IMG/VR virus record: IMGVR_UViG_3300005265_000549
Coordinates: 1 to 64,000 of that record
DNA from: a virus
Direction: 5' to 3' (one strand)
DNA length: 64,000 bases
The notes under the pieces are model-generated. The model did not search any database and was not told where the DNA came from. It worked only from the letters and a program-made list of their open reading frames with translations. Positions 3 through 58,754 of the stretch are shown piece after piece; position 1 is the stretch's first letter; each line of letters starts with the position of its first letter. The position numbers and the translations under genes were made by a program.

Positions 3-362
3 GATAATCAAGAAGCTAGAACTTTAAATGATATGAAAGCAAGAAAATCAACTATGGATGCTAATGTTGATTTATTTTTTAAAATTGGTGCATCAAGAGG
101 TAAAGATATAATTCCTACTTTTGTTGCTGCGTTTGTAGAAAACGTTGATTATGCTATGCGTATTACTCAATGGGTCAGAGATATTCGAGGTGGTGCGGGA
201 GAACGACAATTATTTAAAGATATTCTTTCTTATTTAGAACAAAATGAACCTAATTTAGCAATAAAATTAATTAATAAAATTCCAGAACTTGGTCGTTGGG
301 ATGATATGTTAATTAATTATTCTAATAAAAATGTTGAAGATTATGCTTTCGAAAAGGTTTGA
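3..362 (+). pseudogene. Ro60-like RNA-binding protein, N-terminal fragment (runs in from left edge)
   Basis: The frame is open to the window edge: codons from position 3 read DNQEARTLNDMKARK before the first ATG at 33, so the true start lies outside. The sequence matches the N-terminal HEAT-repeat part of TROVE/Ro60-type proteins (VDLFFKIGASRGKD, RDIRGGAGERQLF, LGRWDDML). Ro60 family proteins form a ring that binds misfolded RNAs and Y RNAs. The frame ends at a TGA (360-362), and the protein continues in another reading frame in the next entry. The stretch expected between the two parts, normally containing a K-W-M-P-R-K-G segment, is largely missing. I read this as a deletion with frame change. 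Alternatives are a sequencing error or a genuinely split, translationally coupled pair (TGATG overlap). Confidence 0.7.
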
Positions 363-1354
363 TGGCTGTGAAGTTGCGTAACTTTTTTGAAATGACTCCT
401 AAACAATATCGTAAAACTTTAGTGAATTTAACAAAAGTTGTTGAAACTCAAATGTGTAAAAAAGAATGGGATGAAATTGATTTTTCAGCAGTTCCTTCAT
501 TAGCACATACTCGTTATAAATCAGCTTTTCAACGTAATTCAGTATCATATGGAAAATGGGTCGAAGCTTTAGTTAAACATGAAGATCCAAAAGTAAAAAT
601 TAATGCTGGAGCTGTTTATCCATATGATATATTAAAACAAGTGATATTAAATATGTTTGGTGGTTGGCAATTTAAACAATTTAATATTTCAGAAACTGAA
701 AGAAATGTTATTATTGAACAATGGAATGTATTACCTAATTATGTGAATGATGCAAAAGTTCTTCCAATGGTAGATGTTTCAGGTTCTATGTTTGGTTTAG
801 CAAGAGATAAAAATGTATCTCCAATACTTGTTGCTATTTCACTTGGATTATATTTTGCAGAAAAAAATACTGGTGATTTTAAAGATGTATTTTTAACTTT
901 TTCAGGTGATCCTGAATTAGTAAAATTAAATGGTGATATTGTTCAAAAAATTGAACAAATGGGAACTAGCAAATGGGGAATGAATACAAATCTCCATAAA
1001 GCTTTTGATAAAGTGTTAGAAATGGCTGTTAGTAAAAATGTAAAATCTGAAGATATGCCAAAAACAATTATTATTTTTTCAGATATGCAATTTGATAATT
1101 GTGTTAGATTTGATGATAATGCTTTAGAAATGATCGAACGTAAATATAATGATGCTGGTTATGAAGTACCTAATATTGTATTTTGGAACATTAATTCTCA
1201 TGACAATGTTCCTGTTAAATTTAATCAATCAAAAACAGCATTAGTATCAGGTTTTTCACCAACAATTGCTAAAACTATTTTAACAAATTTAGAAGATCTA
1301 TCACCAATTAAAATGATGTTAAATACTATTTTAGATAAAAGATATGATTATTAA
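362..1354 (+). pseudogene. Ro60-like protein, C-terminal fragment with VWA domain
   Basis: Continues the Ro60-like protein in a different frame. The codons just upstream of the ATG at 362 read R-K-G-L in this frame, matching the end of the usual M-P-R-K-G segment, so homology begins before the ATG. The first ~100 residues finish the HEAT-type region (MTPKQYRKTLVNLTKVVET). A von Willebrand A domain follows, with a MIDAS motif DVSGS near residue 137 and a downstream IIIFSDMQF strand, as in Ro60. Translation might restart at 362 through the TGATG overlap with the upstream fragment, giving a VWA-only product of 330 residues. Whether any functional ring forms is doubtful, because the joining segment is lost. 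Confidence 0.7.
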
Positions 1355-1850: not shown

Positions 1851-1929
1851 TCCGGGAGTAGCTCAGTCAGGTCAGAGTTCTCGCCTTGGAAGCGAGATGT
1901 CGTAGGTCCAAATCCTACCTTCCGGACCA
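1851..1929 (+). tRNA. tRNA-Pro (anticodon TGG)
   Basis: Full cloverleaf. Acceptor TCCGGGA pairs with TTCCGGA using G-T wobbles. The anticodon stem CTCGC/GCGAG encloses loop CTTGGAA, giving anticodon TGG. The T stem GTAGG/CCTAC encloses TCCAAAT, where the usual second T of the T loop is C. The 3' CCA is encoded. First gene of the tRNA island. Confidence 0.9.
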
Positions 1930-1940
1930 AAAAAATTAAT

Positions 1941-2013
1941 GGGGAATGCTCATGGGTGACACCGGACGTTTTGCAAGTGACTGGGGAGGGTTCAATTCCC
2001 TCATTCTCCACCA
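1941..2013 (+). tRNA. tRNA or tRNA-like gene with irregular D and anticodon arms (best guess Ala-TGC)
   Basis: Acceptor GGGGAAT/ATTCTCC and T arm GAGGG-TTCAATT-CCCTC are sound, and CCA is encoded. The centre is irregular. The only D-arm hairpin I can form is a 3-bp TCA/TGA stem with a 4-nt loop. The best anticodon stem (1965-1969 with 1977-1981) has an A-A mismatch and two wobbles around loop TTTGCAA, which would read TGC. The TTGCAAG register (GCA) pairs worse. It could be a functional but compact tRNA or a decaying copy. Confidence 0.55.
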
Positions 2014-2035
2014 TTTTTAAAAAGAGGAGTTGTGT

Positions 2036-2581
2036 ATGAGACATTTTTTAATTATGTTTTTTATTATGATTTTTTTATCATTTTCTGGTTGTTCTAGAGC
2101 TTATATGGTTAATGAAACTGGAGGATCAGATAGTTTAGTAGCTTGGGCTAATTTATCAAATAGTGGTGATTCAACAGAATTTGAATTTTTATCATTATTT
2201 TTAAATGAAAATATTGATAATTTAAATATAATGAAACTTGAAGATATGTCATTATGGGAAGAAGTTTATGATAATAATCCCAATACTAATCTTTGGGGAT
2301 ATAATTTTCAAAATGAAAATCCAGAATATTTTTTAGTTAAAACTGGAAATAATAATTTAAATGATTATAGATATTTTTTATATTTAAATAATGATTATAT
2401 TTCTTTTGGTGTTATTGATTTATTTGAATCATATGAAATTATTGAGATAGGAAAAATTAGTCATATAAGTTATGCAACACCAACAAATCCTGTTCCTGAA
2501 CCCAATAGTTTATTTTTATTAGGAATTGGTTTAATGTGTTTGGGAATAGTTGGAATAAAAAGAAAGAAAAAAGAAGATTAA
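2036..2581 (+). CDS. Secreted PEP-CTERM sorting-signal protein, 181 aa
   Basis: The start is set at ATG 2036, behind a good AAGAGGAG Shine-Dalgarno. The N-terminus is a hydrophobic export signal (residues 4-18) ending in a lipobox-like FSGC. The C-terminus has the three-part PEP-CTERM signature: V-P-E-P near residue 153-156, a hydrophobic segment SLFLLGIGLMCLGIVG, then a basic tail KRKKK. In PEP-CTERM systems this tripartite tail is recognised by a host exosortase (EpsH family), which processes the protein at the cell envelope or extracellular matrix. The central ~130 residues are rich in N, D, E and aromatic residues and resemble no enzyme I know. Lying among tRNA genes, it looks like acquired cargo. 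A phage coding for such a protein implies a host with an exosortase. The motif is seen directly; the role is inferred. Confidence 0.8.
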   Translation: MRHFLIMFFIMIFLSFSGCSRAYMVNETGGSDSLVAWANLSNSGDSTEFEFLSLFLNENIDNLNIMKLEDMSLWEEVYDNNPNTNLWGYNFQNENPEYFLVKTGNNNLNDYRYFLYLNNDYISFGVIDLFESYEIIEIGKISHISYATPTNPVPEPNSLFLLGIGLMCLGIVGIKRKKKED

Positions 2582-2588
2582 AATATTT

Positions 2589-2672
2589 TGAGGAGAATCT
2601 GGTGATGGCGATTAATTTAGTCATCGGTTCGATTCCTATTTGGAAATTCAGGTTCGATTCCTGACTCCTCAT
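2589..2672 (+). other. tRNA-like sequence with duplicated T-arm motif
   Basis: A perfect 7-bp acceptor TGAGGAG (2589-2595)/CTCCTCA (2665-2671) and a good T arm TCAGG-TTCGATT-CCTGA define a tRNA-like unit of class II length (84 nt). The 12-mer GGTTCGATTCCT occurs twice (2626-2637 and 2651-2662), so the middle looks like a tandem T-arm duplication rather than a variable arm. No canonical anticodon arm is evident (a GATGGC/GTCATC stem closes a 10-nt loop), and no CCA is encoded. Probably a degenerate tRNA or a tRNA-mimicking RNA. Confidence 0.5.
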
Positions 2673-2678
2673 TTTTTA

Positions 2679-2750
2679 GAAGGATATTTTCAGCAAAATA
2701 CTTTACTTTGATCGGTAGTCTTTATTGGTTCGAATCCAATCGTTTTTTTC
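2679..2750 (+). other. Degenerate tRNA-like sequence
   Basis: Contains a perfect T arm ATTGG-TTCGAAT-CCAAT (2724-2740). A weak acceptor can be drawn between GAAGGA (2679-2684) and TTTTTTC, mostly A-T and G-T pairs. The D region is a TTTT/AAAA mini-hairpin. No anticodon stem of 5 bp is found, although TTTGATCG is a possible Ile loop. No CCA end. Most likely a tRNA relic. Confidence 0.4.
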
Positions 2751-2883
2751 GGAAAATGTAGCTTAATTGGTAAAGCATTTAAATTAATATCCTGTTAAAT
2801 TTTTACCCTTGTATACCCTCTGGCTACGAACTAGTTGAAAGGTTAATGAATACATGCAGGTTTGAATCCTGTCAAGGGTTCCA
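2751..2883 (+). other. Composite tRNA-like sequence: 5' half of one tRNA joined to a scrambled Arg-like tRNA
   Basis: 2751-2800 looks like a tRNA 5' half (typical D arm TAGCTTAATTGGTAAAGCA, and CTGTTAA that would be an Asn loop) without a matching 3' half. 2805-2883 carries an acceptor ACCCTTG/CAAGGGT, T arm GCAGG-TTTGAAT-CCTGT and TCCA end almost identical to the tRNA-Arg at 4595. Its middle is rearranged: TACCCTCT, which in tRNA-Arg is the 3' side of the anticodon arm, follows directly after position 9. Likely products of recombination between tRNA genes. Confidence 0.45.
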
Positions 2884-2893
2884 TAAATAATTA

Positions 2894-2945
2894 AGGTTGT
2901 TTCCCACATATCAAATAAAAATTTTTTATTTTTAAATAACAACCT
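2894..2945 (+). other. Hairpin-forming spacer between tRNA-like genes
   Basis: AGGTTGTT (2894-2901) and AACAACCT (2938-2945) form a perfect outer stem. The inside contains a second, all-A/T self-complementary stretch (AAATAAAAA/TTTTTTATTT). No T-run follows, so it is not a standard terminator. It is a structured non-coding element of unknown role; a Y-RNA-like partner for the Ro60-like gene was considered but is unsupported. Confidence 0.45.
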
Positions 2946-2957
2946 GATTTAAATTTT

Positions 2958-3030
2958 GAGTCTGACAAGTGTTCTTGGGTTATGGCTGCAAACCATCTTC
3001 AAGAGGGTTAAATTCCCTCCAGACTCTCCA
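2958..3030 (+). tRNA. tRNA-Cys (anticodon GCA)
   Basis: Acceptor GAGTCTG/CAGACTC, discriminator T and encoded CCA. Anticodon loop CTGCAAA on an ATGG/CCAT stem; pair 27-43 is a mismatch. T arm GAGGG-TTAAATT-CCCTC has A instead of the conserved C56. The D arm is compact, without an obvious G18-G19. The ACAA...GGTTATG layout resembles bacterial tRNA-Cys. Confidence 0.82.
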
Positions 3031-3037
3031 TATTTAA

Positions 3038-3121
3038 GCCCTCGTGGTGGAACGGTTTACACAGTGGACTCAAAATCCATACCCTTATGGGTTCCCGGTT
3101 CGAATCCGGGCGAGGGTACCA
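3038..3121 (+). tRNA. tRNA-Leu (anticodon CAA)
   Basis: Class II tRNA with acceptor GCCCTCG/CGAGGGT. Anticodon stem TGGA/TCCA has loop CTCAAAA (CAA, reads TTG). The long variable arm is ACCCTTATGGGT, the T arm CCCGG-TTCGAAT-CCGGG, and ACCA is encoded. Standard in every respect. Confidence 0.93.
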
Positions 3122-3143
3122 TTTAAAAAGGAATAATAATAAT

Positions 3144-3512
3144 ATGAAGAAATTGTTTTATTTATGTATATTTTTATTGATAACAACTTCAACATTAGCT
3201 ATTGAATCACCAATAAAATTAACAGTCTTACAATCACCAACAAAAAATATTTTATTTGAAGTTAAAGAAGCAAAAAAACCAATAGTTAAATATAGTCATA
3301 TTATTCATAATAAAATCAAATGTATTAAATGTCATCATAAAATAAAAACTGGTGATACTAATATTAAAAGTTGTAATGAATGTCATAATACGACAAGTGA
3401 AATTAATTTAAAAAGTGCTTTACATAAAAATTGTAAAACTTGTCATAAAGAAATGAAAAAAGATAATAAAAAAACTGGTCCAATAACTTGTAGAGGATGT
3501 CATAAAAAATAG
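3144..3512 (+). CDS. Tetraheme cytochrome c3-like periplasmic protein, 122 aa
   Basis: The start is ATG 3144, with an AAAAAGGAA ribosome site; an in-frame upstream start would fall inside the tRNA-Leu gene. Residues 1-19 form a signal peptide (hydrophobic core LFYLCIFLLITT, then TLA). The mature part holds four CxxCH heme-attachment motifs at C60, C77, C97 and C116. It also holds exactly four further histidines (H52, H55, H65, H94) placed as distal ligands; the Y-S-H-x-x-H...C-x-x-C-H-H spacing is characteristic of class III cytochromes (c3/c7). The mature length of ~103 residues fits tetraheme c3. Such proteins shuttle electrons in the periplasm of sulfate and metal reducers. All four motifs are CxxCH, whereas classical c3 often has CxxxxCH at two sites. 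Function in infection (supporting host energy metabolism) is inference. Confidence 0.88.
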   Translation: MKKLFYLCIFLLITTSTLAIESPIKLTVLQSPTKNILFEVKEAKKPIVKYSHIIHNKIKCIKCHHKIKTGDTNIKSCNECHNTTSEINLKSALHKNCKTCHKEMKKDNKKTGPITCRGCHKK

Positions 3513-3572
3513 AGCGGGGTGATGCAGTGGTTAGCAGGTTAGCCTCATAAGCTAACAGTTGTGGGTTCAAAT
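3513..3572 (+). pseudogene. Truncated tRNA-Met copy (ends inside T loop)
   Basis: 60 nt identical except for one base (T for C) to the first 60 nt of the intact tRNA-Met at 3932. Homology stops in the T loop after GTGGGTTCAAAT; the 3' half of the T stem, the acceptor strand and CCA are absent. It cannot make a functional tRNA. Confidence 0.9.
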
Positions 3573-3589
3573 TTTGAAACAAGGAAAAG

Positions 3590-3847
3590 ATGGAATATTC
3601 TAAAGAACAAAAAAAGGAAATTGTTAAATGTAATGTGGATCAAGCCAAAAATATTTTAGTAAAAGCACAATTAATGAATAAAGGAATGTATTCACATCCA
3701 ATTAACAAAATGATACATCAATTATCTGATCTTCTCTCAAAAAAATCTATGTATAACTATGATGATGAGGAAGATATATTTTGGAAAATTGTGAAATTAA
3801 AACACTCGTTGGCTGGATATATGTTTTATGTAGATAATGAAATTTGA
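3590..3847 (+). CDS. Hypothetical protein, 85 aa (cassette between tRNA-Met repeats)
   Basis: Unrecognised. Starts at ATG 3590 behind AAGGAAAAG. Predicted all-alpha and charged (KEQKKEIVK, DDEEDIFWKIVKLKH). It is the only gene in the segment bounded by the partial and complete tRNA-Met copies, so it may have arrived with that insertion. Confidence 0.6.
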   Translation: MEYSKEQKKEIVKCNVDQAKNILVKAQLMNKGMYSHPINKMIHQLSDLLSKKSMYNYDDEEDIFWKIVKLKHSLAGYMFYVDNEI

Positions 3848-3931
3848 TTTTTTGGAGTTATTTAGTGGTGATTGGATTATGGCTAAACATATTAGTCATT
3901 AGAGATAATTACCAAAAGATCCTAATAATAC

Positions 3932-4007
3932 AGCGGGGTGATGCAGTGGTTAGCAGGTTAGCCTCATAAGCTAACAGTCGTGGGTTCAAATCCCACCCCC
4001 GCTACCA
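3932..4007 (+). tRNA. tRNA-Met-type (anticodon CAT)
   Basis: Acceptor AGCGGGG/CCCCGCT, D arm with GG, anticodon stem TTAGC/GCTAA with loop CTCATAA, T arm GTGGG-TTCAAAT-CCCAC, ACCA encoded. The first pair is A-T, so it lacks the C1-A72 mismatch of an initiator. It is elongator Met, or Ile2 if the C is lysidinylated. Confidence 0.92.
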
Positions 4008-4035
4008 AAATATTTAATTAAATAGTGTAAAAACC

Positions 4036-4064
4036 TTGACATTATCTTTTCTTTATGTTATTAT
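4036..4064 (+). promoter_or_regulatory. Class A early promoter, copy 1
   Basis: TTGACA (4036-4041), 17-bp spacer, TATTAT (4059-4064), preceded by AAACC. The spacer TTATCTTTTCTTTATGT is the same as in five other copies at 10189, 14278, 18193, 20467 and 24976. It drives the deoxyribosyltransferase-like gene and perhaps the tRNAs downstream. Confidence 0.85.
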
Positions 4065-4108
4065 GTGTTTATATAATTAACTTAAAGATGGAGGAAATAA
4101 AAAGTTAA

Positions 4109-4507
4109 ATGAAAGTTTTTTTAGGTGGAACTTGTAATGAAAGTAATTGGCGAAATCGTATGATGATTTATTTAACCAATTATGGGATTGATTATTTTAA
4201 TCCAGTTGTTGATGATTGGGATGAAAAAGCACAAAAAAATGAATTAAAAGAACGTGAAAAATGTGATGTTTGTCTTTATACAATTACACCAAAAATGTTA
4301 GGTTTTTATTCAATTGCTGAAGTAGTTGATGATAGTAACAAAAAACCAGAAAAAACTATTTTAATTCTTTTAAAAGAAGATGAATTTTATAAATTTAGTA
4401 AAGAGAAATGGAAATCTCTAAAAGCTGTAGCAAATTTAGTGAAAAGAAATGGTGGAAAAGTTTTTTATAATCTACATAATGCTGCAGTAGAAATTTCTAA
4501 AATATAA
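4109..4507 (+). CDS. Nucleoside 2-deoxyribosyltransferase-like protein, 132 aa
   Basis: Matches the small phage/bacterial family of nucleoside 2-deoxyribosyltransferase-like proteins. It begins with VFLGGTCNESNWR, followed by YFNPVVDDWD, a charged RE-K-CDVCLYTITPKM strand and GFYSIAEVVDDS. The family fold is a Rossmann-like alpha/beta fold acting on deoxynucleosides (base exchange or hydrolysis), fitting nucleotide salvage. The length is typical. The ATG is preceded by GATGGAGG and a class A promoter, so it should be expressed early. Confidence 0.8.
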   Translation: MKVFLGGTCNESNWRNRMMIYLTNYGIDYFNPVVDDWDEKAQKNELKEREKCDVCLYTITPKMLGFYSIAEVVDDSNKKPEKTILILLKEDEFYKFSKEKWKSLKAVANLVKRNGGKVFYNLHNAAVEISKI

Positions 4508-4510
4508 TTT

Positions 4511-4584
4511 GGGTGCGTAATTCAATAGTAGAATAGTGGACTTTTAATCCATCAACGAAGGGGCAGTACCTTCCGCACTCACCA
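4511..4584 (+). tRNA. tRNA-Lys (anticodon TTT) with non-canonical elbow
   Basis: Acceptor GGGTGCG/CGCACTC, anticodon stem TGGA/TCCA with loop CTTTTAA, CCA encoded. The T stem GAAGG/CCTTC encloses GGCAGTA instead of TTCRANT. The D loop (AATAGTA on a TTC/GAA stem) has no G18-G19. Both halves of the usual D-loop/T-loop contact are therefore missing together. Confidence 0.85.
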
Positions 4585-4594
4585 AAAAATATTT

Positions 4595-4671
4595 ACCCTT
4601 GTAGCTGAAATGGAACAGCAAGAGGTTTCTACCCTCTGTTAATGCAGGTTCGAGTCCTGTCAAGGGTTCCA
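4595..4671 (+). tRNA. tRNA-Arg (anticodon TCT)
   Basis: Acceptor ACCCTTG/CAAGGGT, D arm AGCTG...CAGC, anticodon stem AGAGG/CCTCT with loop TTTCTAC (TCT, reads AGA), T arm GCAGG-TTCGAGT-CCTGT, TCCA end encoded. AGA is expected to be the common Arg codon in such an AT-rich genome. Confidence 0.92.
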
Positions 4672-4677
4672 AAATAA

Positions 4678-4776
4678 TGTATTGGATTAATGTAAAAGTA
4701 ACAACAGAAGATAAACTTTTTGATGAATTTACTTTTATTATTAGTAAAGTATGTGGTTATTCAGATTATAATTAAA
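4678..4776 (+). CDS. Possible 32-aa ORF or gene remnant between tRNAs
   Basis: ATG 4678 opens a 32-codon frame (MYWINVKVTTEDKLF...). There is no Shine-Dalgarno sequence, as the ATG follows directly on the tRNA-Arg end. The amphipathic sequence could be the start of a larger lost gene. Low confidence that it is translated. Confidence 0.25.
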
Positions 4777-4795
4777 TATATTTTAAATGTTTCAT

Positions 4796-4872
4796 ACTCC
4801 GGTAGCTTAGTTGGTTAAAGCACTCAACTTATAATTGAGAGATTGATGGTTCGATCCCATCTCGGGGTACCA
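4796..4872 (+). tRNA. tRNA-Ile (anticodon TAT)
   Basis: Acceptor ACTCCGG/TCGGGGT (with wobbles), D arm containing TTGGTTAAAGC, anticodon stem CTCAA/TTGAG with loop CTTATAA (TAT, reads ATA), T arm GATGG-TTCGATC-CCATC, ACCA encoded. ATA decoding suits an AT-rich phage. Confidence 0.9.
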
Positions 4873-4882
4873 AAAATATTAT

Positions 4883-4958
4883 TCCCACCGACCGAGCAAG
4901 CGAACGGGCCTGACTGTTAATCAGAGATTGCCAGGGGCGGTACCTGGGGTGGGAGCCA
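4883..4958 (+). tRNA. tRNA-Asn (anticodon GTT) with non-canonical elbow
   Basis: Acceptor TCCCACC/GGTGGGA, anticodon stem CTGA/TCAG with loop CTGTTAA, GCCA end encoded. The T stem CCAGG/CCTGG encloses GGCGGTA instead of TTCRANT. The D loop AGCAAGCGAA on a CCG/CGG stem lacks GG. The same paired loss occurs in tRNA-Lys at 4511. Confidence 0.85.
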
Positions 4959-4968
4959 AAATTTTAAT

Positions 4969-5044
4969 GCTTCTGTAGTTAAACTGGCTATAACACTAGA
5001 CCGATAATCTAGAATTCCCTGTTCGAGTCAGGGTGGAAGCACCA
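4969..5044 (+). tRNA. tRNA-Ile (anticodon GAT) with C33
   Basis: Acceptor GCTTCTG/TGGAAGC (two G-T pairs), anticodon stem CTAGA/TCTAG with loop CCGATAA, T arm CCCTG-TTCGAGT-CAGGG, ACCA encoded. Position 33, almost always T, is C here. Confidence 0.87.
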
Positions 5045-11761: not shown

Positions 11762-12508
11762 ATGATTTTACTTAATAAACAAAAAGTTGAATTCAAACAA
11801 TTTCCTAATGGTGAACTTTATTTTAATAATGAAGATTTATATATTCGTCAAGTTAATTATATTGCATGGGAATATGAAAATAATGAAGATTTGATTAAAC
11901 TCATGTTTTTAAAGAGATACTTGGATGATGATTATCGAACAGTAAATCTTTATATTAAATATTTACCGTATTCTCGAATGGATAGAAAAAATCCTTCGTA
12001 TCCATTTACATTAAAATATATTTGTGAATTTATTAATAATTTGAATTTCTTTAATGTAACAATTCAAGATGTACATTCTGATGTATCTTCTGCACTATTA
12101 AATAAAAGTACTGATATATCGTGGGTTGTTCCTACTGCTAAAAAGTTAATTGAAACTTTAGATATTGATACAATATTTTATCCTGATGCTGGTGCTCAAA
12201 AAAGATTTAATATTGATTTTGATAACATTGCTGTTGGTTTTAAACAAAGAGATTTTAGATCTGGAAAAATTGTTGATTATAAAATCTCTGGAAAAATTTT
12301 TGGAAATGTAATGATTGTTGATGATATGTGTAGTCGTGGTGGAACATTTATTGAAGCAGTAAAACATTTTCCAAAAGTTGTTAATAAAATTTATCTTTTA
12401 GTTTCGTATTTGGAAGAAAATGTTTTTACAGGCAATCTTGAAGCATATATAACTAAAGTTTTTCATAATAATAAGGTGTCTGATAATTTTTTTATTGAGC
12501 AATTATAG
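11762..12508 (+). CDS. Ribose-phosphate pyrophosphokinase-like enzyme (Prs, or ADP-ribose pyrophosphokinase type)
   Basis: Phosphoribosyltransferase-fold protein of 248 residues. YLPYSRMDRKN (about residue 67) matches the ATP-loop segment of Prs, and VMIVDDMCSRGGTF (about residue 183) is the PRPP/ribose-5-phosphate site. It is shorter than cellular Prs (~310). Ten bases downstream lies a NAMPT gene. In the described phage NAD+-restoring pathway NARP1, a gene annotated as Prs makes ADP-ribose pyrophosphate and a NAMPT-annotated partner joins it to nicotinamide. The adjacency here fits either that chemistry or ordinary PRPP supply for NAMPT; sequence alone does not decide. Confidence 0.85.
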   Translation: MILLNKQKVEFKQFPNGELYFNNEDLYIRQVNYIAWEYENNEDLIKLMFLKRYLDDDYRTVNLYIKYLPYSRMDRKNPSYPFTLKYICEFINNLNFFNVTIQDVHSDVSSALLNKSTDISWVVPTAKKLIETLDIDTIFYPDAGAQKRFNIDFDNIAVGFKQRDFRSGKIVDYKISGKIFGNVMIVDDMCSRGGTFIEAVKHFPKVVNKIYLLVSYLEENVFTGNLEAYITKVFHNNKVSDNFFIEQL

Positions 12509-12517
12509 GAGAGATTA

Positions 12518-14005
12518 ATGAATTATTTTCCAGCAACTCTTTTGTGTGATTTTTATAAAGTTTCTCATCGGGAACAATATCCTGATGGAACTGAATATGT
12601 TTATTCTACTTGGACTCCGAGAAGTAATAGTCATCATCCTACGTCTAAATATGTTATTGCTTTTGGTTTTCAAGCATTTATTAAAAAGTATATGATTGAT
12701 TATTTTAATGAAAATTTTTTCAATCATAATTTATCTGCAGTTATTGCGGAATATACTAGATATATTAAATATACACTATCAATTGAAAAACCTTATACTA
12801 AACATATTGAAGATCTTTGGCGTCTACAGTATTTGCCAATTAAAATTAAAGCATTACCAGAAGGAACAAAAGTACCATTTCGAGTTCCAATGTTAACTAT
12901 TGAAAATACTCATCCTGATTTCTTTTGGCTTACTAATTATTTTGAAACTTTGATGTCTGCTGAAATGTGGATGCCATCGACTTCTGCAACTATTTCCAAT
13001 GAATATCGAAAAATTATTGAGAGATATGCTGAAGAAACTGGTGCTGATAAAGAACTTATTCAATTTCAAGCACATGATTTTAGTATGCGAGGTTGTGTCG
13101 GACTTGAAGCATCTAATTTAGTTGGTGCTGGTCATTTACTTTCTTTTACTGGTACCGATAATATTCCTGCAATTGGATATTTAGAAAATTATTATTATGC
13201 AAATATTGAAAAAAAATTAGTAGGTTGTTCTATTCCAGCAACTGAGCATTCGGTTATGTGTGCAGGTGGAGCAGATAATGAATTTAAAACATATAAACGA
13301 TTAATTACTGAAGTTTATCCAAATGGAATGATTTCTATTGTTAGTGATACTTGGGATCTTTGGAATACAATCACTAATATTTTACCACAATTAAAAAATG
13401 AAATTATGAATCGAGATGGAAAAGTTGTAATTCGTCCTGATAGTGGAGATCCAGTTGATATTATTTGTGGTTTAAATAGTAATTCTTATGCTGCTTGTTT
13501 TAAAAAAGATTATAATCCTGAAGATAAAGGTGTAATTCAATTGCTTTGGGAAATTTTTGGTGGAACTATTAATGAAAAAGGTTATAGAGTTCTCGATCCT
13601 CATATCGGTGCTATTTATGGTGATGCTATAACTTTAGATAGAGCTAAAGAAATTTTAAAAAGATTAAAAAATAAAGGATTTGCGAGTTCTAATATTGTAT
13701 TTGGTGTCGGTTCTTATACATATCAATATAATACTCGTGATACTTTTGGTTTTGCATTAAAATCTACTGCATGTATTATTAATGGAAAAGAATTTAAGAT
13801 TTATAAAGATCCTAAAACTGATAATGGAATTAAAAAATCCCAAAAAGGAAAAATAGTAGTCTTAGAAAAAGATGGAAAATTAATTTACGAAGATATGTAT
13901 AATTGGAATGATAAAGTTAGTGAAGATCTTTTAGAAGTTATTTATGAAGATGGTTTTTTAATAAAAAAACAATCTTTAGAAGAAATTCGTCAACGAATTA
14001 TTTAA
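12518..14005 (+). CDS. nadV: Nicotinamide phosphoribosyltransferase-like enzyme
   Basis: 495 residues, full length for NAMPT/NadV. The N-terminus (LLCDFYKVSHREQYPDGTE), DFSMRGCVGLEAS, a conserved ATEHSVMCAGG, VIRPDSGDP and GVGSYTYQYNTRDTFGFA are classic NAMPT blocks. It condenses nicotinamide with PRPP to NMN, or, if it is a NARP1 Namat, with ADP-ribose pyrophosphate to NAD+ directly. It follows the Prs-like gene and starts after AGGAGAG. An NMN adenylyltransferase-like gene at 34945 could complete the classical route. Confidence 0.94.
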   Translation: MNYFPATLLCDFYKVSHREQYPDGTEYVYSTWTPRSNSHHPTSKYVIAFGFQAFIKKYMIDYFNENFFNHNLSAVIAEYTRYIKYTLSIEKPYTKHIEDLWRLQYLPIKIKALPEGTKVPFRVPMLTIENTHPDFFWLTNYFETLMSAEMWMPSTSATISNEYRKIIERYAEETGADKELIQFQAHDFSMRGCVGLEASNLVGAGHLLSFTGTDNIPAIGYLENYYYANIEKKLVGCSIPATEHSVMCAGGADNEFKTYKRLITEVYPNGMISIVSDTWDLWNTITNILPQLKNEIMNRDGKVVIRPDSGDPVDIICGLNSNSYAACFKKDYNPEDKGVIQLLWEIFGGTINEKGYRVLDPHIGAIYGDAITLDRAKEILKRLKNKGFASSNIVFGVGSYTYQYNTRDTFGFALKSTACIINGKEFKIYKDPKTDNGIKKSQKGKIVVLEKDGKLIYEDMYNWNDKVSEDLLEVIYEDGFLIKKQSLEEIRQRII

Positions 14006-34000: not shown

Positions 34001-34948
34001 AAAGTTGAAGAAGTAGAATTAACTGAAAAAGAAATAGCTGAAAAAACTTATAATTTAAATAAAAAATATCATGCAGGAAAACATGGAAGTATTGGAATTC
34101 AATTACTAAAAGAATTTAATGTATCATTACCTGAAGAAGAATGGAAAGCTTTTAGAGAAGAATGGAAAGATAAAGGTGATGGAATTTTATATCCTATGTT
34201 TCATGGAACAAATGGAACAGCTGCTTCAATGATTTTAAGATTTGGTTTTGCTATTTTATCTGTTAAAGAATTATCTTCAGCCGGTGGAAAATATGCTGGT
34301 AATATGTTAGGTGCTGGTGTTTATACTGCTCCTAACATGGATAAAGTTGCTAATTATATTGGTGAACAAAATTATGGACAATTAGGTTCTATTGGATATT
34401 TATTTGAAATTGATCAAACTTTAGGTGAAAAAAATAATCATTATCGAACAATGGGGCATGGTGGAGATAGAATTCGTTCACCTGAATATTGTTCTAAATA
34501 TCCTAGAAAACAATTAAAAATTGTAAAATGTTATAAAGCAGTAAAATCATCATTAAAACATATTTCAAAAACTGCTAGTAAAAATGGAGTAAAATTAGAT
34601 GAAGCTTTTGAAAATCAAATACATAAAGGAATTTTAATGGAAAGTGATGAATTAGATATGATAATTGATGAAGGTTGGACTAATTTTATTTTTATGGATG
34701 GTTATATTCCTATTGGTAATAATGATGCTTTAAATTTCAGTTTTGTAACTTCTCAATTTTATGATGATATTCAAATTACACAAAATCAAGATGGTATAGT
34801 ATATTCAATAAAAAATGATATAGGTAATTTTGAAACTTTTAAAATTCCAGATACTTTTTTTGCTATTGAAGAAAAAGATCCTATTATATCAAAATTTTTA
34901 AATATGACAAAAGATAAATTAATTATTGATAAAGAAGAAATAAAATGA
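31091..34948 (+). CDS. Giant PARP-like ADP-ribosyltransferase, 1285 aa
   Basis: About 1000 residues of alpha-helical, Asn/Lys-rich sequence precede a C-terminal catalytic region. There YPMFHGTNGTAASMILRFGF holds the NAD-binding H1038-G-T, GAGVYTAPNMDKVANYI (about 1075-1090) supplies the tyrosine, and a distal NFIFMDGYIP takes the place of the usual N-E-x-x-V-Y. This is a PARP-type (H-Y-x) fold. The normal catalytic Glu is not obvious, so it may do mono-ADP-ribosylation. The N-terminus M-N-S-L-N-K-L-F-E fits the L-x-E leader. T4 Alt, an ADP-ribosyltransferase injected with the DNA, is the functional precedent. An NMNAT-like gene overlaps its stop (ATGA). Confidence 0.75.
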   Translation: MNSLNKLFENSLYSNDQEKSDFVNSEKLVHIAFWIGFLGPIFLYINSDNPVIKKYFKSDKKLRIDAITDDNNDTSLTLSLIKTSIPPALVNKITRFLVRLKSGQKIDEDLFKKEIFDPLYKKTINLTLSPQIKRTLKSYYNGNLSSLDVVKTFIINARRWKICNEFKFLARKCKIKGEVKISKDTSNDSNIIKKDNKDGASTDTTVIKPPIPAWENYLIDFASKINNKEIRAIFEEDLISYFKGEMYGQTYRNITFRNMDVFFDLVLSLDKNQLPDVKFNIRLMEIKSFHLPLILLSLNPKLTDKIKQTSFSNIEHTGLDYFNPIFYLMFFYKFSSARIITEKCFAEMSIDLYYNTIVKEMAANSKGIEFFTIDWIADFFFNNLYKLEDKDYFVSLIKFLINNLTSKEFIMLKSKVNDNLKNRLIKYGLYHLFEKLPIDKIKMYDFQQFIETIMSSSYSMNKIFEDYRKEYLPDNSLEEIKKIFLNQDFNDLDFSRLNNALSYISVYDPIFIEKLCEFFNNEKKIVDLIDKMIKNFNNNDNSLNRLRSHFIILFPNYFSEKERNEIFEKNIISLINVLQYCHDNKSLSNLENWKYEYCEKIINYLTNNNKFDKKENSIISNINLNLFKLFGDVWAKKLFSKFKDNFLKNYFLISSIYSKNKLKIEILRFSKILDKNIIFKIISDSDDNDQKELTLQKINELFITIVDKFDNSIDIESLEKIIETLNEKLEFSSDMNQYQKKFITIELLTKNIKYKNNKIIENFYVNLFKQNPGFFCKLNLKNLKDLEEIIKKHLSKKQIAEIFKNKSTEDIIGERFNINNINFINLIDDNDKKIEFFKKYINEYKRQVNSSLKRGGIIPKINNFAFDLYQKDPKIIDKLFDELDLSTKNQLFAELRTFVTIAPLLSNIHTSPVVPLKKLKSEDIRNALKYNKFEIAEVIKVRKRKGETYSETLKRTIKIADASQNKIPKQKVEEVELTEKEIAEKTYNLNKKYHAGKHGSIGIQLLKEFNVSLPEEEWKAFREEWKDKGDGILYPMFHGTNGTAASMILRFGFAILSVKELSSAGGKYAGNMLGAGVYTAPNMDKVANYIGEQNYGQLGSIGYLFEIDQTLGEKNNHYRTMGHGGDRIRSPEYCSKYPRKQLKIVKCYKAVKSSLKHISKTASKNGVKLDEAFENQIHKGILMESDELDMIIDEGWTNFIFMDGYIPIGNNDALNFSFVTSQFYDDIQITQNQDGIVYSIKNDIGNFETFKIPDTFFAIEEKDPIISKFLNMTKDKLIIDKEEIK

Positions 34949-35508
34949 TATCATTTAAAAAATATTTAGAAGAAGCACTTTCATTAGATAATGTAAATAA
35001 AACACCTGGTAAAAATAAAGTTGTTGTAATGATGGGTCGTTTTCAACCACCGACTATCGCACATTTAGATATAATTGAAAAAGCATATAAAAAATATAAA
35101 CTTCCTGTTATTATTGCAATAGTAAAATCAAAAAATAAAAATTCACCTTTTTCAGTAGATATAATTAAAAAAATGATTAAAGAATCTATTAAAGGAAAAA
35201 TAGAATTTTTAGAACTTTCAAGTGGTTTTATTGGAGATTTTATTTCTCCATTAAGAGATAAAAATTTAGAACCAACAATTTTATTTGCTGGTTCTGATCG
35301 AATAAAAAGTTATGAAAATCAAATTGAACGATATAAAGAATTATTTGATTTAAATTTAACAGTAGAAGAAATAAAACGAAATGATGATGATGTTTCAGCA
35401 TCAAAAGTCAGAGATGCTTTAAAGAATAATGATGAAGAAAGTTTTAAAAAATTAATGTCAAAAAATTTACATAAATATTTTAAAAAATTAAAAGGGATGA
35501 TGGTATGA
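34945..35508 (+). CDS. Nicotinamide-nucleotide adenylyltransferase-like protein, 187 aa
   Basis: MMGRFQPPTIAHLDII is the nucleotidyltransferase G-x-F-x-P-x-x-x-x-H motif (T-I-A-H replacing H-x-G-H). LFAGSDR and the C-terminal SASKVRDAL (I-S-S-T-x-x-R type) complete the fold. The closest function is NMN adenylyltransferase (NMN + ATP to NAD+), which would pair with NAMPT at 12518; pantetheine or glycerol nucleotides are alternatives. The N-terminus M-I-S-F-K-K-Y-L-E-E-A resembles the T4 capsid-targeting sequence, suggesting the enzyme may enter with the DNA. Overlaps the PARP-like gene. Confidence 0.78.
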   Translation: MISFKKYLEEALSLDNVNKTPGKNKVVVMMGRFQPPTIAHLDIIEKAYKKYKLPVIIAIVKSKNKNSPFSVDIIKKMIKESIKGKIEFLELSSGFIGDFISPLRDKNLEPTILFAGSDRIKSYENQIERYKELFDLNLTVEEIKRNDDDVSASKVRDALKNNDEESFKKLMSKNLHKYFKKLKGMMV

Positions 35509-37059: not shown

Positions 37060-37566
37060 ATGATTATCAGAAAAAAGTATAAATTTGAATCCGCTCACAT
37101 TGTCAGAAATTGTTCATCAATTCGTTGTTCAGAATCAATTCATGGTCACTCATATATTGTAGAAGTTTTTATAAAATCAAATCATTTAGATAATGGTCAG
37201 ATGGTCTACGATTTTGGTTTAATGACTCCAATTAAAAATTTTATTGATAGATTTGATCATTCATATGTTTTTTGGAAAGATGAAAGTTCAGATTTTAAAA
37301 AATTTATTCGTCTTTTTTCTGATAGATGGATTGAAATGCCATTATCACCGACTGCTGAATGTTTTTCTTTAATATTTTTTAAATTTATAGATGAAATATT
37401 AAATAATACTAAATTTAAAAATGGTGAAAAACGAGTTGAACTTCATTCAGTAAGAGTACATGAAACAGCAACTGGTTATGCTGAATGTTTTAAAAATGAT
37501 ATGCATCTTATTAATAAATATGAAACAGAAGATATTAAATTTAGTGAATCTATAATGAAAGGATAA
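37060..37566 (+). CDS. queD: 6-carboxy-tetrahydropterin synthase (QueD)
   Basis: PTPS/QueD fold: FESAH (H13) and SIHGHSY (H28, H30) provide the zinc histidines, and C23 lies at the catalytic-cysteine region. DFGLMTPIKNFIDRFDHSYVF and the terminal VRVHETATGYAE (catalytic E) match QueD. It converts dihydroneopterin triphosphate to carboxy-tetrahydropterin, the second step of 7-deazaguanine synthesis. 168 residues, slightly longer than bacterial QueD through an insertion near RLFSDRWIEM. Start with GGAGGAG. Confidence 0.92.
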   Translation: MIIRKKYKFESAHIVRNCSSIRCSESIHGHSYIVEVFIKSNHLDNGQMVYDFGLMTPIKNFIDRFDHSYVFWKDESSDFKKFIRLFSDRWIEMPLSPTAECFSLIFFKFIDEILNNTKFKNGEKRVELHSVRVHETATGYAECFKNDMHLINKYETEDIKFSESIMKG

Positions 37567-37569
37567 AAA

Positions 37570-38346
37570 ATGTTTGTTGATGAAATTTTTTATGGTTTAC
37601 AAGGAGAAGGAAATCGTATGGGTTTCCCATCTGTTTTTATTAGAATAGGAGGATGTAATTTATGTTGCAAAGGATTTGGTTGTAAAACCATTTCACCAAA
37701 AACAGGCGAAATATTATATGGTTGTGACACAATTCATGCAGCAAATACTGAACATTTTATTAGAACTTGGACAGATTATAAAAAATCTTTTGATATAATT
37801 AATATTGTTTTAAATCAAGTTCCTAAAAATCGTCCTTATAATGAAGAAAGAGTTGATATTATTTTTACTGGTGGAGAACCATTTTTATTCCATAAAAATA
37901 AAATAATGATTGAAGTTGTTGAATATTTTATATCAAGAGGACATAAAGTTTATTTTGAAACTAATGGAACAATTAATATTGATTTTAATGAATTTGATAT
38001 TTATAAAAAAGTTTCAATGAGTATAAGTGTAAAAATGAGCAATAGTGGTGAAGAAAAACGTAAAAGATGGAGACCAGAAGTCGTTAATAATTATCTAAAA
38101 CATACTAAAGATTCTTATTTTAAATTTGTTATGAGTAAAGATAATTTAGAAAATGAAAGTGATGAAATTTTTGAATTTCTTAGTTTAGTTCCTACTTATG
38201 GAACAGTTTATTGTATGCCTAAAGGTGAAACTCAAAAAGAATTAAAAGAAAATAGTAAAGCAATTTATGAATTTGTTTCTAAACAAGGTTTTCGTTATTC
38301 AGATAGATTACATATTAGAATTTTTAGTGATAAAAGAGGAGTTTAA
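37570..38346 (+). CDS. queE: 7-carboxy-7-deazaguanine synthase (QueE)
   Basis: Radical SAM enzyme making the 7-deazaguanine core (CDG). FYGLQGEGNRMGFPSVFIRIGGCNL is the QueE N-terminus, with cluster cysteines C29, C33 and C38 (and C32), a variant spacing of the usual CX3CX2C. IIFTGGEPFLF is the SAM-binding GGEP motif and YFETNGT is also characteristic. 258 residues, with an insertion after the cysteines (ILYGCDTIHAANTEHF). Lies three bases behind queD. Confidence 0.93.
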   Translation: MFVDEIFYGLQGEGNRMGFPSVFIRIGGCNLCCKGFGCKTISPKTGEILYGCDTIHAANTEHFIRTWTDYKKSFDIINIVLNQVPKNRPYNEERVDIIFTGGEPFLFHKNKIMIEVVEYFISRGHKVYFETNGTINIDFNEFDIYKKVSMSISVKMSNSGEEKRKRWRPEVVNNYLKHTKDSYFKFVMSKDNLENESDEIFEFLSLVPTYGTVYCMPKGETQKELKENSKAIYEFVSKQGFRYSDRLHIRIFSDKRGV

Positions 38347-38348
38347 AT

Positions 38349-38729: not shown

Positions 38730-38731
38730 TA

Positions 38732-55479: not shown

Positions 55480-57132
55480 TTAGAATGATTTACCAATAAA
55501 TTCAGCAAAATCAACACCTGTACGAGTGGCGATAAAATTTAATGAAATAAATTCTGCGGTTCTAGTAGGTTGAATAAAAATATCACATACTAATTCATTA
55601 GCATCAATTACTGCTGGAGTATTATTAGTATCATCACAAACTACTAAGAATTCATTGATTCCTTCTCTACCTTGAACTCTTCTTAAAAATGGTTCGATCA
55701 TACCTATAATTTGTCTACGAGTAAAAGCTGTATTTTTCTCAAAAATAAAATATTTTGAAGCTGTACTTATTGCTTTTTCAAGAATAATAAATAATCGTCT
55801 TACATCAATTCTATCAAAAGCTGAAGGTTTATTTTGCATTGTTTTTTGTCCAAAAACTGTTGCACCATCACCAGCAAAAATTGTAATAGGATTAACTTGT
55901 TTTTTATATAAAGTATCTCTTTGAGCTCTATTTGGACTAAAAGCTAATTTAATAACATTTTTAATAATTCCACGATTTAAACCAGCTGGGGCAAACCAAG
56001 GATCTCTAGTATTATCAGTATATGCAAAAATACCAGCTACATCACCAGTGATTGGAACCCAACGATATTTATCATTGAATTTATCATATTGATATTTCCA
56101 ATTTCCATATAATGCAGCATATGATGATGAAGTTAAAATAGTATCTCTATAATCTGTACAATTTGTTGTAGCTGTTCCTGCCGGAATATTTACGACATCA
56201 ATTTTTGGAACACCTAATATTCCCATACAATCTTTTCTAGAAGATGCTATTGAAATAATTTCTGCTTGAACTGTAATATTAGTAGATGCTGCATCTAAAA
56301 TTAAATTAATATCAAATTCTTCTGGATTAGCAAATAAATCTAATCCAAGAATAATATCATCATTTCCAGGTGCACCTTCAACTCCACCAGCTAATGCAGT
56401 TGCTTCAAATGCTAAAATTTCATCATCATCATCATCATTAGCATAAGCAAGTAAATATGAAGAATATCTATTAACATAATCTTCAACATAAATTGAAGTT
56501 CCTTCAAAATTTGTATCTGTTTCATTAAAAGAAACAATCATTTGTTCTAAAATTTGATCATCAGAATCTAAAACTACGATAGCAAATTGATCAGTAGTTT
56601 CTGGACCAAATTCAAATTCATCGGCAAATTTAGTTGTTCCAACAATATTAGCTGAAGCAAATTCAGCATAATTTGCTATTGCTACTTTATATGTATTTCC
56701 TTTGATACCAGGATATTTTGCGACTAATAATAATTTTTGATCTTCATCGGCCGCTGTATAAGTATAAACATCCGCTGCATCACTATTTGGAATATATACT
56801 GGTTTTGTTGCTGGCACACCAGCACCTGTAGTATCTTCACATTCCAATCCAGCATTAAGAGCTGAGCTATCATCAACTGCTCTTACAATATAAAGTGTAT
56901 TTCCATATTGTAAAAAATTCCAAGCTGTAAACCAATCTTGATAATTAGCATCAGTTGGATATCCAAAAATGGTTAAAAGATCTTTTTCGCTTGTTACAAG
57001 TTTTTTGTCAAATGCTGGTCCCCATTCAAATTGACCAGACATTCCAGCTATTGAAGTTGAAACTGCTGGAATAGAAGTTGTTAAATCAATTTCTTTTACA
57101 TTGACAGATGGTGAAAGATTGAAGCCCATCAT
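55480..57132 (-). CDS. 18: Tail sheath protein (T4 gp18-like)
   Basis: 550 residues. The N-terminal SPSVNVKEIDLTTSIPAVSTSIAGMSGQFEWGP is the sheath start, and the C-terminal domain (RIDVRRLFIILEKAISTASKYFIFEKNTAFTRRQII, and FIQPTRTAEFISLNFIATRTG) is the conserved sheath core. Slightly shorter than T4 gp18 (659), with a compact outer domain. Two adjacent ATGs (57132, 57129) follow GGAGAAT. Forms the contractile sheath. Confidence 0.95.
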   Translation of the reverse strand: MMGFNLSPSVNVKEIDLTTSIPAVSTSIAGMSGQFEWGPAFDKKLVTSEKDLLTIFGYPTDANYQDWFTAWNFLQYGNTLYIVRAVDDSSALNAGLECEDTTGAGVPATKPVYIPNSDAADVYTYTAADEDQKLLLVAKYPGIKGNTYKVAIANYAEFASANIVGTTKFADEFEFGPETTDQFAIVVLDSDDQILEQMIVSFNETDTNFEGTSIYVEDYVNRYSSYLLAYANDDDDDEILAFEATALAGGVEGAPGNDDIILGLDLFANPEEFDINLILDAASTNITVQAEIISIASSRKDCMGILGVPKIDVVNIPAGTATTNCTDYRDTILTSSSYAALYGNWKYQYDKFNDKYRWVPITGDVAGIFAYTDNTRDPWFAPAGLNRGIIKNVIKLAFSPNRAQRDTLYKKQVNPITIFAGDGATVFGQKTMQNKPSAFDRIDVRRLFIILEKAISTASKYFIFEKNTAFTRRQIIGMIEPFLRRVQGREGINEFLVVCDDTNNTPAVIDANELVCDIFIQPTRTAEFISLNFIATRTGVDFAEFIGKSF

Positions 57133-57191: not shown

Positions 57192-58754
57192 TTAAAAAAA
57201 ATATTCTAATGGTATTGAATTATCTTCTTTTTTCATTGAATCTGGAAAAAAGCCTACTGGTAATAAATTATTTTCTATTTCCTCCATTGCTTTAGAATAA
57301 ATTTTTCCCAAAATATTTTCTTGTTCTAACCAAATATCAACTAATTGTTCATTTGACATAAAATATGAAAATAAAATTAATGGAGTAATTAAATCATCAT
57401 GTTTTGTTTTAGCAGCAGAAAACGTTCCATTTTTCTGCTTCTCAAAATAACTAAATTGTTCGATTGTTTCAAAATTTAATATATTTAATTTATTTAATTC
57501 TATAAATGTTTTAAGATGTGAACAACCTAATCGTTTTGAACCTCTAGTCATCCTAATTCCAAATTTTTTATTATAAAAAAATAAATTTTCATATTCATAA
57601 TCATAATTCAAAGAATTTAAAACTGATTCACCAATAGAATTATTTTCAACAATTACTAATGAATTATTATAAGCTTTTCCTATATTATTTATCACATTAG
57701 AAAATAAATTAGTTTTAATCAAATTATCATTAAATACTGCTACTTGCTTCCATGGAATCGTTGTGACATCAATAATTTGAATTGTAGAATAATCACCACC
57801 AACACCTTCAGCTACATCACAAACAGAAATATAACTATGATTTTTAATTGGATTTTCATAAATTTTTAAGTTATCATTATTTATTGAAATTGGGTCTTCA
57901 AATACCATATTTCTTATTGTATTTACATCAATTAAAGTATTAGATGATCCTAAAAATTCAGATTCAAATTCTTGTCGGAATCTTTCAATTCCTATTTCAG
58001 AAATCATTTTTTCACGCCAAGCTTCATCTCGACCAGGAACTTCATTCCATTTTATACTAAAATATTTATAACCATTTATTCCTTTTTCTGCTTCAATCCA
58101 AAATTTATAAAAGTGATTTAATCCCCAAGGAGTAGAAACCATTAAAATTTTAGCTTCTTTTGATGTTGAAATAGTTGGATAAACAGATTGAATGAAGTCT
58201 TCAAAAACACCATGATGAATAAATGCAAATTCATCAAGTGCTAAAAAATTTATTGCCATACCACGAATGGCTGATGAACTTGTTGCTGCTGTAACTATTC
58301 TAGAACCATTATCAAATTCAACAGTTCCTTTATTCCATTCAACAACTCCAGGTTTTAACCATTTTGGAAGATTTTCAAACATTATTTTTATTCTATATAA
58401 TATTTCTCTAGCTGTCTTATCTTTATTACCTAAAATTGCTGCAGTTTTATTTTCATTGAATATTATATAATGACACATATAAGCTGCAAAAGATGCAGTC
58501 TTTCCTGATTGTCTTCCAAGCTTTGCTATAATTCTTTTATTATTATGTATTAAATTAATAAATTTAGTTTGATAATCATATAAATCAAATTTAATTAATC
58601 CATCATCCAAATTTACAATATAAATATAATTTTTTATAAAATAAATTGGATCAAATTTACAACGAATTATTTCTCTAATTTGTTCTTTAGTATAATTTTC
58701 TTTGAAACCTTTAGGGTTTAGATTTATATTACCTTGATAAGATACTTTATTCAT
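57192..58754 (-). CDS. 17: Terminase large subunit (T4 gp17-like)
   Basis: 520 residues (T4 610). ATPase: Walker A GRQSGKT (80-86), Walker B FLALDEF (LALDE 172-176), coupling motif VSTPWG. Nuclease: SVCDVAEGVGGDYS (first Asp), IVENNSIGESV, and HDDLITPLILF (final acidic pair). Packages DNA into proheads and cuts headful ends. The start is separated from gp14 by a ~250-bp gap with a terminator and a dispersed repeat. Confidence 0.95.
   Translation of the reverse strand: MNKVSYQGNINLNPKGFKENYTKEQIREIIRCKFDPIYFIKNYIYIVNLDDGLIKFDLYDYQTKFINLIHNNKRIIAKLGRQSGKTASFAAYMCHYIIFNENKTAAILGNKDKTAREILYRIKIMFENLPKWLKPGVVEWNKGTVEFDNGSRIVTAATSSSAIRGMAINFLALDEFAFIHHGVFEDFIQSVYPTISTSKEAKILMVSTPWGLNHFYKFWIEAEKGINGYKYFSIKWNEVPGRDEAWREKMISEIGIERFRQEFESEFLGSSNTLIDVNTIRNMVFEDPISINNDNLKIYENPIKNHSYISVCDVAEGVGGDYSTIQIIDVTTIPWKQVAVFNDNLIKTNLFSNVINNIGKAYNNSLVIVENNSIGESVLNSLNYDYEYENLFFYNKKFGIRMTRGSKRLGCSHLKTFIELNKLNILNFETIEQFSYFEKQKNGTFSAAKTKHDDLITPLILFSYFMSNEQLVDIWLEQENILGKIYSKAMEEIENNLLPVGFFPDSMKKEDNSIPLEYFF

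Follow-up and report, generated by a model that had tools for sequence, protein, structure and literature searches.

A tetraheme class III cytochrome gene in a T4-like phage and its relatives in other viral genomes

The stretch of DNA analysed here (the window, 64,000 nucleotides, positions 1 to 64,000 of IMG/VR record IMGVR_UViG_3300005265_000549) carries at 3144..3512 on the plus strand a gene whose product, P0001, is a tetraheme cytochrome of class III (c3-type), as established by translation, a PF02085 profile match and alignment to c3. The family identity is firm, while heme binding is inferred from sequence and so is function. What stands as shown at the sequence level is the family, four heme sites with a full set of bis-His ligands, a predicted secretion signal, stable residence in a phage genome and recurrence in other phages. 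On this basis we favour, with moderate confidence, an auxiliary periplasmic electron carrier that would sustain or redirect anaerobic respiration.

The cytochrome and its heme ligands

Translation of the reading frame gives 122 residues (MKKLFYLC...CRGCHKK), as a first-pass annotation, made from the letters without database searches, had proposed. A ribosome-binding-like AAGGA (3128..3132, plus strand, by sequence reading) precedes the ATG at 3144, whereas a second in-frame ATG at 3087 falls within a tRNA-Leu gene (3038-3121), and so 3144 is the likelier start. Residues 1-20 (3144..3203, plus strand) form a signal peptide predicted by hydropathy only: the mean Kyte-Doolittle value is 2.1 over residues 4-19 and at most 0.45 in later 16-residue stretches. 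This hydrophobic N-terminus closes with an AxA-like TLA, after which we infer cleavage. Both features agree with the signal peptide claimed in the first-pass annotation; secretion to the periplasm is inferred from them and has no experiment behind it.

The four heme sites, all on the plus strand, are CIKCH (heme I, residues 60-64, 3321..3335), CNECH (heme II, residues 77-81, 3372..3386), CKTCH (heme III, residues 97-101, 3432..3446) and CRGCH (heme IV, residues 116-120, 3489..3503). By analogy with c3, their putative distal ligands are His 52, His 65 (in CHH), His 55 and His 94, respectively, a pairing which we take to be that of c3 generally and which was not computed for P0001. The mature protein has 8 cysteines in total, all in the four CxxCH motifs (residues 60, 77, 97 and 116), and the histidines are likewise 8 in all, namely the proximal 64, 81, 101 and 120 and the distal 52, 55, 65 and 94. 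Every His and Cys of mature P0001 is thus accounted for as a heme ligand or attachment site, and the earlier claim of four CxxCH motifs with distal H52, H55, H65 and H94 held exactly. Shuffling the mature sequence 100,000 times never produced four CxxCH motifs, and shuffling the window 100 times gave no chance match to a DNA pattern built on the last two heme sites.

Assignment to the class III cytochromes, also claimed previously, held in the profile search, where PF02085 (Cytochrom_CIII) matched P0001 with an E value of 1.8e-15 and 57.5 bits against a curated cut-off of 22.9. A six-frame search of the full record with the same profile found one place only (57.6 bits). Furthermore, a profile of the phage tetraheme proteins matched the c3 structure 2cy3 at 59.8 bits, with the 4 heme-binding motifs and 4 distal histidines in register. 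The mature protein is strongly basic (23 K+R vs 8 D+E).

Structure prediction, proposed in the first-pass annotation as a check on heme placement, was too poor to serve. An AlphaFold model of P0001 on a shallow phage alignment reached a pLDDT of 63.7 and a pTM of 0.41, and a second run with the mature protein a pLDDT of 49.7, both of low confidence. With the first model, the top three Foldseek matches were two c3 and one c7, all at E >=0.047 and TM below 0.36, the matches to c3 being weak with TM under 0.3. The models thus neither support nor refute heme placement, and the case rests on sequence evidence.

Genomic context and relatives in other phages

The source record comprises 89,201 bases at 24.5% GC. 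Among its T4-like genes are a terminase large subunit (57192..58754, minus strand), which marks the contig as phage, a tail sheath (55480..57132, minus strand), two tail tubes, a sliding clamp, a clamp loader and a gp32-like protein. The left flank of the cytochrome holds a phage RNA-binding protein gene (phrog_850, 33..1354, plus strand) in two overlapping frames. On the right, a tRNA array is followed by a phrog_2470 membrane protein, ThyX and NAMPT. The array comprises six tRNAs (ARAGORN) over 1852-5044, on both sides of the cytochrome; a tRNA-Leu (caa) lies directly upstream (3038..3121, plus strand; ARAGORN, Rfam 57.2 bits). Just past the cytochrome stop is a truncated second tRNA-Met copy (3505..3572, plus strand), 96% identical to 3924-3991; the intact tRNA-Met gene is at 3932-4007. 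The GC3 of the cytochrome is 0.073 vs 0.078 for long ORFs of the same phage. The T4-like hallmarks, the phage families on both flanks and GC3 thus support a phage-encoded cytochrome, as first claimed, and together with the phage homologues described below they meet the criterion for an auxiliary metabolic gene, that is, a bacterial metabolic-type gene inside a phage genome.

A neighbouring gene (2036..2581, plus strand) encodes a secreted protein with a PEP-CTERM sorting signal (PF07589, 26.8 bits, cut-off 20.7; TIGR02595, 26 bits, cut-off 16), which we regard as a second host-envelope-type cargo gene. No ORF of the 89-kb contig other than the cytochrome contains a CxxCH motif, and no maturation gene was seen. 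The cytochrome lies on a plus-strand arm with tRNA and nucleotide-metabolism genes, opposite to the structural genes, which occupy the minus strand from 48 kb on; this layout suggests, by inference, early or middle expression. Matches to the T4 late-promoter motif TATAAATA in the window were below chance expectation, none within 3.9 kb of the cytochrome, so that the scan is uninformative.

Several other features of the window deserve mention. The phrog_850 gene is split near 360, so it is frameshifted or mis-assembled. Behind it, at 2722-2876, come a degenerate tRNA-like stretch and a YrlA-like Rfam match that is only weak (27.5 bits, gathering 69), which together with the protein make a possible Ro60/Y-RNA-like phage pair. 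The 68-nt tRNA-Met repeats (3505-3572 and 3924-3991) flank an ORF at 3590-3847, which points to the tRNA array as a hot spot of insertion. PRPP-synthetase-like, NAMPT and nucleotidyltransferase-like genes (11762-14005 and 34945-35508) may serve NAD+ salvage, of a kind known against NAD-depleting defences. At 37060-41799 are QueD-like (PTPS), QueE-like (Fer4_12, by sequence appearance), GTP cyclohydrolase and phrog_10773 genes, which could modify the phage DNA with 7-deazaguanine. A large minus-strand ORF (53651-55375), inserted between the genes for tail sheath and tail tube, has weak Mom-like and restriction-endonuclease-like matches below cut-off and shares 52% identity with an ORF in the corresponding position of a 236-kb phage (G019, below).

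To find relatives, 2.9 million viral contigs (IMG/VR) were scanned with motifs and profiles, the relatives being recovered by inspection of the ORFs hit by a degenerate DNA pattern for heme sites III and IV. Eight records, representing seven distinct other T4-like phages, carry small tetraheme c3 or triheme c7 cytochromes. The tetraheme ones are G012 (3300033146_001603), G016 (3300033146_001170) and G013 (3300035158_000869); the triheme ones are G014 (3300033146_001182), G015 (3300035034_000988, a 12-kb fragment), G017 (3300025997_000004, 164 kb), G018 (3300007987_000016, its cytochrome identical to that of G017) and G019 (3300037424_000434, 236 kb). Six of the seven distinct relatives score as Cytochrom_CIII above the Pfam cut-off, and G015 as Cytochrome_C7 above its own. 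Profile-derived scans returned the same eight records and added none. As all these scans require exact or near-exact motifs, the counts are lower bounds, with at least this many phage cytochromes present. The queried cytochromes had no match among 50,697 GenBank phages. The rarity of such cargo, claimed in the first-pass annotation, therefore held, at about eight c3/c7 records in 2.9 million; the window cytochrome is not unique, since seven other T4-like phages carry relatives. A single-sequence pattern scan with P0001 gave no close relatives in viral contigs or plasmids. Its sole hit in bacterial genome contigs (L015) matched only in the signal peptide and is no cytochrome, and most DNA-pattern matches in viral contigs were Cys/His-rich chance frames, equally discarded.

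Shared gene content ties these phages together to different degrees. G016 and the window phage have 16 common best hits, including terminase (39%), sheath, tube and clamp loader, and G012 is a sister of G016 (28 common best hits). G017 and G019 have 118, with sheath, terminase, gp25-like and clamp-loader homologues; best hits common with these two number 55-68 for G014, 23-26 for G013 and 12-13 for G015. The GC3 of each relative's cytochrome is within about 1.4 sd of that of its own phage. Among the seven phages the gene occupies three neighbourhoods. It comes after a kinase and a membrane protein in G012 and G016, and adjoins 5'-3' exonuclease-like and ribonucleotide-reductase-like genes (named by sequence appearance only) in G013. 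In G014, G015, G017 and G019, the triheme gene lies 3' of tRNA/tmRNA genes or a conserved small ORF and is followed directly, or almost so, by a GH108 endolysin (PF05838; the two that were tested scored 85 and 80 bits). Across 80 records with related endolysins, a small cytochrome is found upstream only where endolysin identity is >=67%, and 50 of the remaining records have no c3/c7 above the Pfam cut-offs, so the cytochrome is stable in one phage group and optional elsewhere. It is optional around the window phage too, being present in 0 of the 11 closest terminase relatives among viral contigs (mostly fragments).

The ligands are conserved across this set. H52, H55, H94, three heme sites and P113 are invariant in nine phage proteins, and H65 and the second heme in the four tetraheme ones, heme II being missing from the triheme relatives. 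That all four tetraheme proteins keep the four distal histidines at 34-38% identity suggests selection for heme ligation. Two additional genes were observed in these phages: in G017 a second triheme protein (paired CxxCH, PF09699, 27.5 bits) is encoded directly behind the c7 (L276:9786-10049), and G014 encodes a secreted PEP-CTERM protein (87179-87913; 29.6 bits, cut-off 20.7).

A different multiheme protein occurs in G020 (IMGVR_UViG_3300008086_000010), a T4-like phage of 118 kb and 27% GC with 21 ORFs in common with the window phage and 26 with G016. Near its endolysin, on the minus strand (67968-69590; L320:4412-6034), is the gene for an octaheme reductase-like secreted protein of 540 aa with nine CxxCH motifs, matching octaheme tetrathionate reductase (1sp3, E 2.2e-50) and PF11783 (86 bits), and without a match among GenBank phages. 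With this protein the phenomenon takes in a possible reductase besides electron carriers.

Origin, host and comparison with known cytochromes

A phylogeny, suggested in the first-pass annotation as a route to the host lineage, leaves the origin unresolved. In a tree of 15 sequences, the four triheme phage proteins (G014, G015, G017, G019) form one group (93/92) that joins bacterial c7 (95/94), and the tetraheme phage proteins fall among c3 and HmcA without resolution. A single clade is not rejected, either for all phage cytochromes (p-AU 0.19) or for the four tetraheme ones (0.23), and thus the tree does not decide between a common and an independent origin. The core of P0001 is 32-45% identical to c7/c3 of several bacterial lineages (c7 3bxu 45%, c3 2cy3 37%, 1aqe 33%) and 31-42% identical to its phage relatives. 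With similarity to bacterial lineages about equal to that within the phages, the gene is a weak host marker and not the strong one first proposed. The host might be an anaerobe rich in periplasmic cytochromes, Desulfobacterota-like, a possibility inferred from the c3/c7 families and unproven. PEP-CTERM proteins imply an exosortase system, and their presence in the window phage and G014 makes hosts with such a system probable. The nearest named-phage terminases, those of Methylophilales phage Melnitz and cyanophages, are at about 43% identity, too distant for a host to be read from them.

Among known proteins, c3 and c7 serve sulfate and metal reducers as electron carriers in the periplasm. The c3 of sulfate reducers (PF02085; 2cy3 and 1w7o of Desulfomicrobium, 1gyo, 1czj) shares with P0001 the four heme sites, the bis-His pattern, about 100 mature residues and secretion, which for P0001 is a prediction. 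P0001 differs in being a phage gene and in having CxxCH at every site, where 2cy3 and 1aqe have CxxxxCH at the second. The best NCBIfam equivalog is the acidic tetraheme c3 TmcA (NF045722), at 51.5 bits over nearly the full length; an assignment as TmcA was rejected, the score being far under the 114-bit cut-off and P0001 being basic. The c7 proteins (the PpcA family of Geobacter; c551.5 of Desulfuromonas acetoxidans) are, among solved structures, nearest to the triheme phage proteins (1ehj, 40.6 bits), and G012 ends in a similar way, with a C-terminal GPTKCGECH. They bind three hemes and lack heme II, in contrast to the fourth site of P0001, which was likewise rejected as a Geobacter c7 (NF043011, 21.3 bits vs a cut-off of 120; four heme sites). 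The best single-sequence PDB match is HmcA (1h29, 1gws), at 57.9 bits summed over several c3-like domains; this protein holds sixteen hemes in one chain of >500 residues, and P0001 corresponds to one of its domains.

Phage-borne electron carriers are a known category of auxiliary gene, to which we assign P0001. Plastocyanin and ferredoxin genes, for instance, are electron-transfer cargo of cyanophages. Their products are, as inferred for P0001, small soluble electron carriers from T4-like phages; unlike them, P0001 is multiheme, inferred to be periplasmic, anaerobic, and inferred to need host heme attachment. The open-licence literature that we searched yielded no description of a class III cytochrome encoded by a phage, although an earlier mention elsewhere is possible. 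A study of oxygen-minimum-zone viruses did not observe cytochromes in its phages (PMC8115048), and phage heme-biosynthesis genes have been described in habitats rich in multiheme cytochromes (PMC11480375).

Possible roles during infection

Under the carrier hypothesis, the host Sec system would export P0001 and the host cytochrome c maturation machinery would load its hemes, the latter inferred because the contig shows no other CxxCH gene or maturation gene. The protein may then act as an extra shuttle in the host periplasm, of putatively low potential, linking host dehydrogenases or quinone-linked complexes to terminal reductases or extracellular-transfer chains. Electron flow would thereby be kept up or redirected once host gene expression drops, sustaining the proton-motive force and ATP supply on which phage production depends. 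In favour of this reading are the PF02085 score, the complete ligand set, the phage context, the phage-like codon use and the recurrence in seven phages. The triheme gene, moreover, keeps its place upstream of the endolysin in 4 of the 4 distinct phages of its group, and a multiheme cytochrome of another kind occurs in G020, a T4-like relative of low GC. Its limits are the absence of expression, heme-loading, redox or host evidence, the low-confidence model and the optional nature of the gene. A role in electron transfer during infection, as the first-pass annotation had it, remains unproven, inferred from the family.

The main rival, which remains possible, is a non-respiratory secreted cytochrome: an electron sink or decoy drawing electrons from host partners or, in variants, a periplasmic detoxifier of metals or reactive nitrogen/oxygen species, or an envelope factor for lysis or superinfection exclusion. 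It draws support from the GH108 endolysin neighbourhood in G014, G015, G017 and G019 and from the surface-type PEP-CTERM protein beside the window cytochrome, with another in G014; decoy binding would also be compatible with an unchanged family signature. Against it, the cytochrome is not adjacent to an endolysin in the window phage, G012, G016 and G013, and the tRNA region and lysozyme gene are often close in T4-like phages anyway. Furthermore, the 50 related-endolysin viral records without c3/c7 above the Pfam cut-off indicate that lysis itself has no need of a cytochrome. Membership of a lysis cassette is positionally true in four phages and was rejected for the window phage.

A chance passenger without benefit to the phage is unlikely. 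The rare and patchy distribution, the location in a tRNA array with duplicated tRNA fragments, typical of an insertion hot spot, and the unresolved origin would fit such a gene. However, its composition is fully adapted to the 24.5% GC genome, the reading frame is intact with all heme sites kept, and several phage lineages retain relatives with every ligand, where a neutral passenger would be expected to decay.

Least tenable is a chimera joining bacterial DNA with its cytochrome to a phage, which the first-pass annotation had named as a refutation and which, judged from sequence without read coverage data, is very unlikely: the gene is just 3.1 kb from the left contig end and covered by one assembly only, since the independent record that corroborates the right part (L004, G001; identical terminase, overlap at ~56-89 kb, >=99.5% over long aligned blocks) does not reach it, yet the left flank is of a phage family, tRNA genes stand on both sides, the sequence of the intact tRNA-Met recurs behind the cytochrome, GC3 agrees with the phage value, and the family recurs in seven other phages, one with an identical gene in two separate metagenome records.

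Returning to the auxiliary carrier that we prefer, a bolder reading, which we hold slightly less likely than not, is that several T4-like lineages on anaerobic cytochrome-rich hosts share a recurring secreted multiheme set (tetraheme c3, triheme c7, paired-CxxCH triheme and octaheme reductase-like proteins) with which they would seize periplasmic or extracellular electron transfer. If true, this would be an anaerobic counterpart of the cyanophage photosynthesis genes; carriers are known in viruses of photosynthetic bacteria and are essentially unreported for anaerobic respiration in the searchable literature. The phage c3/c7 proteins are small and testable with the expression systems already available for c-type cytochromes, and the phage homologues listed here offer several independent starting points. 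Should phages indeed supply c3/c7 to their hosts, they could directly influence sulfate, iron and other anaerobic respirations, and could carry multiheme cytochrome genes from one bacterium to another.
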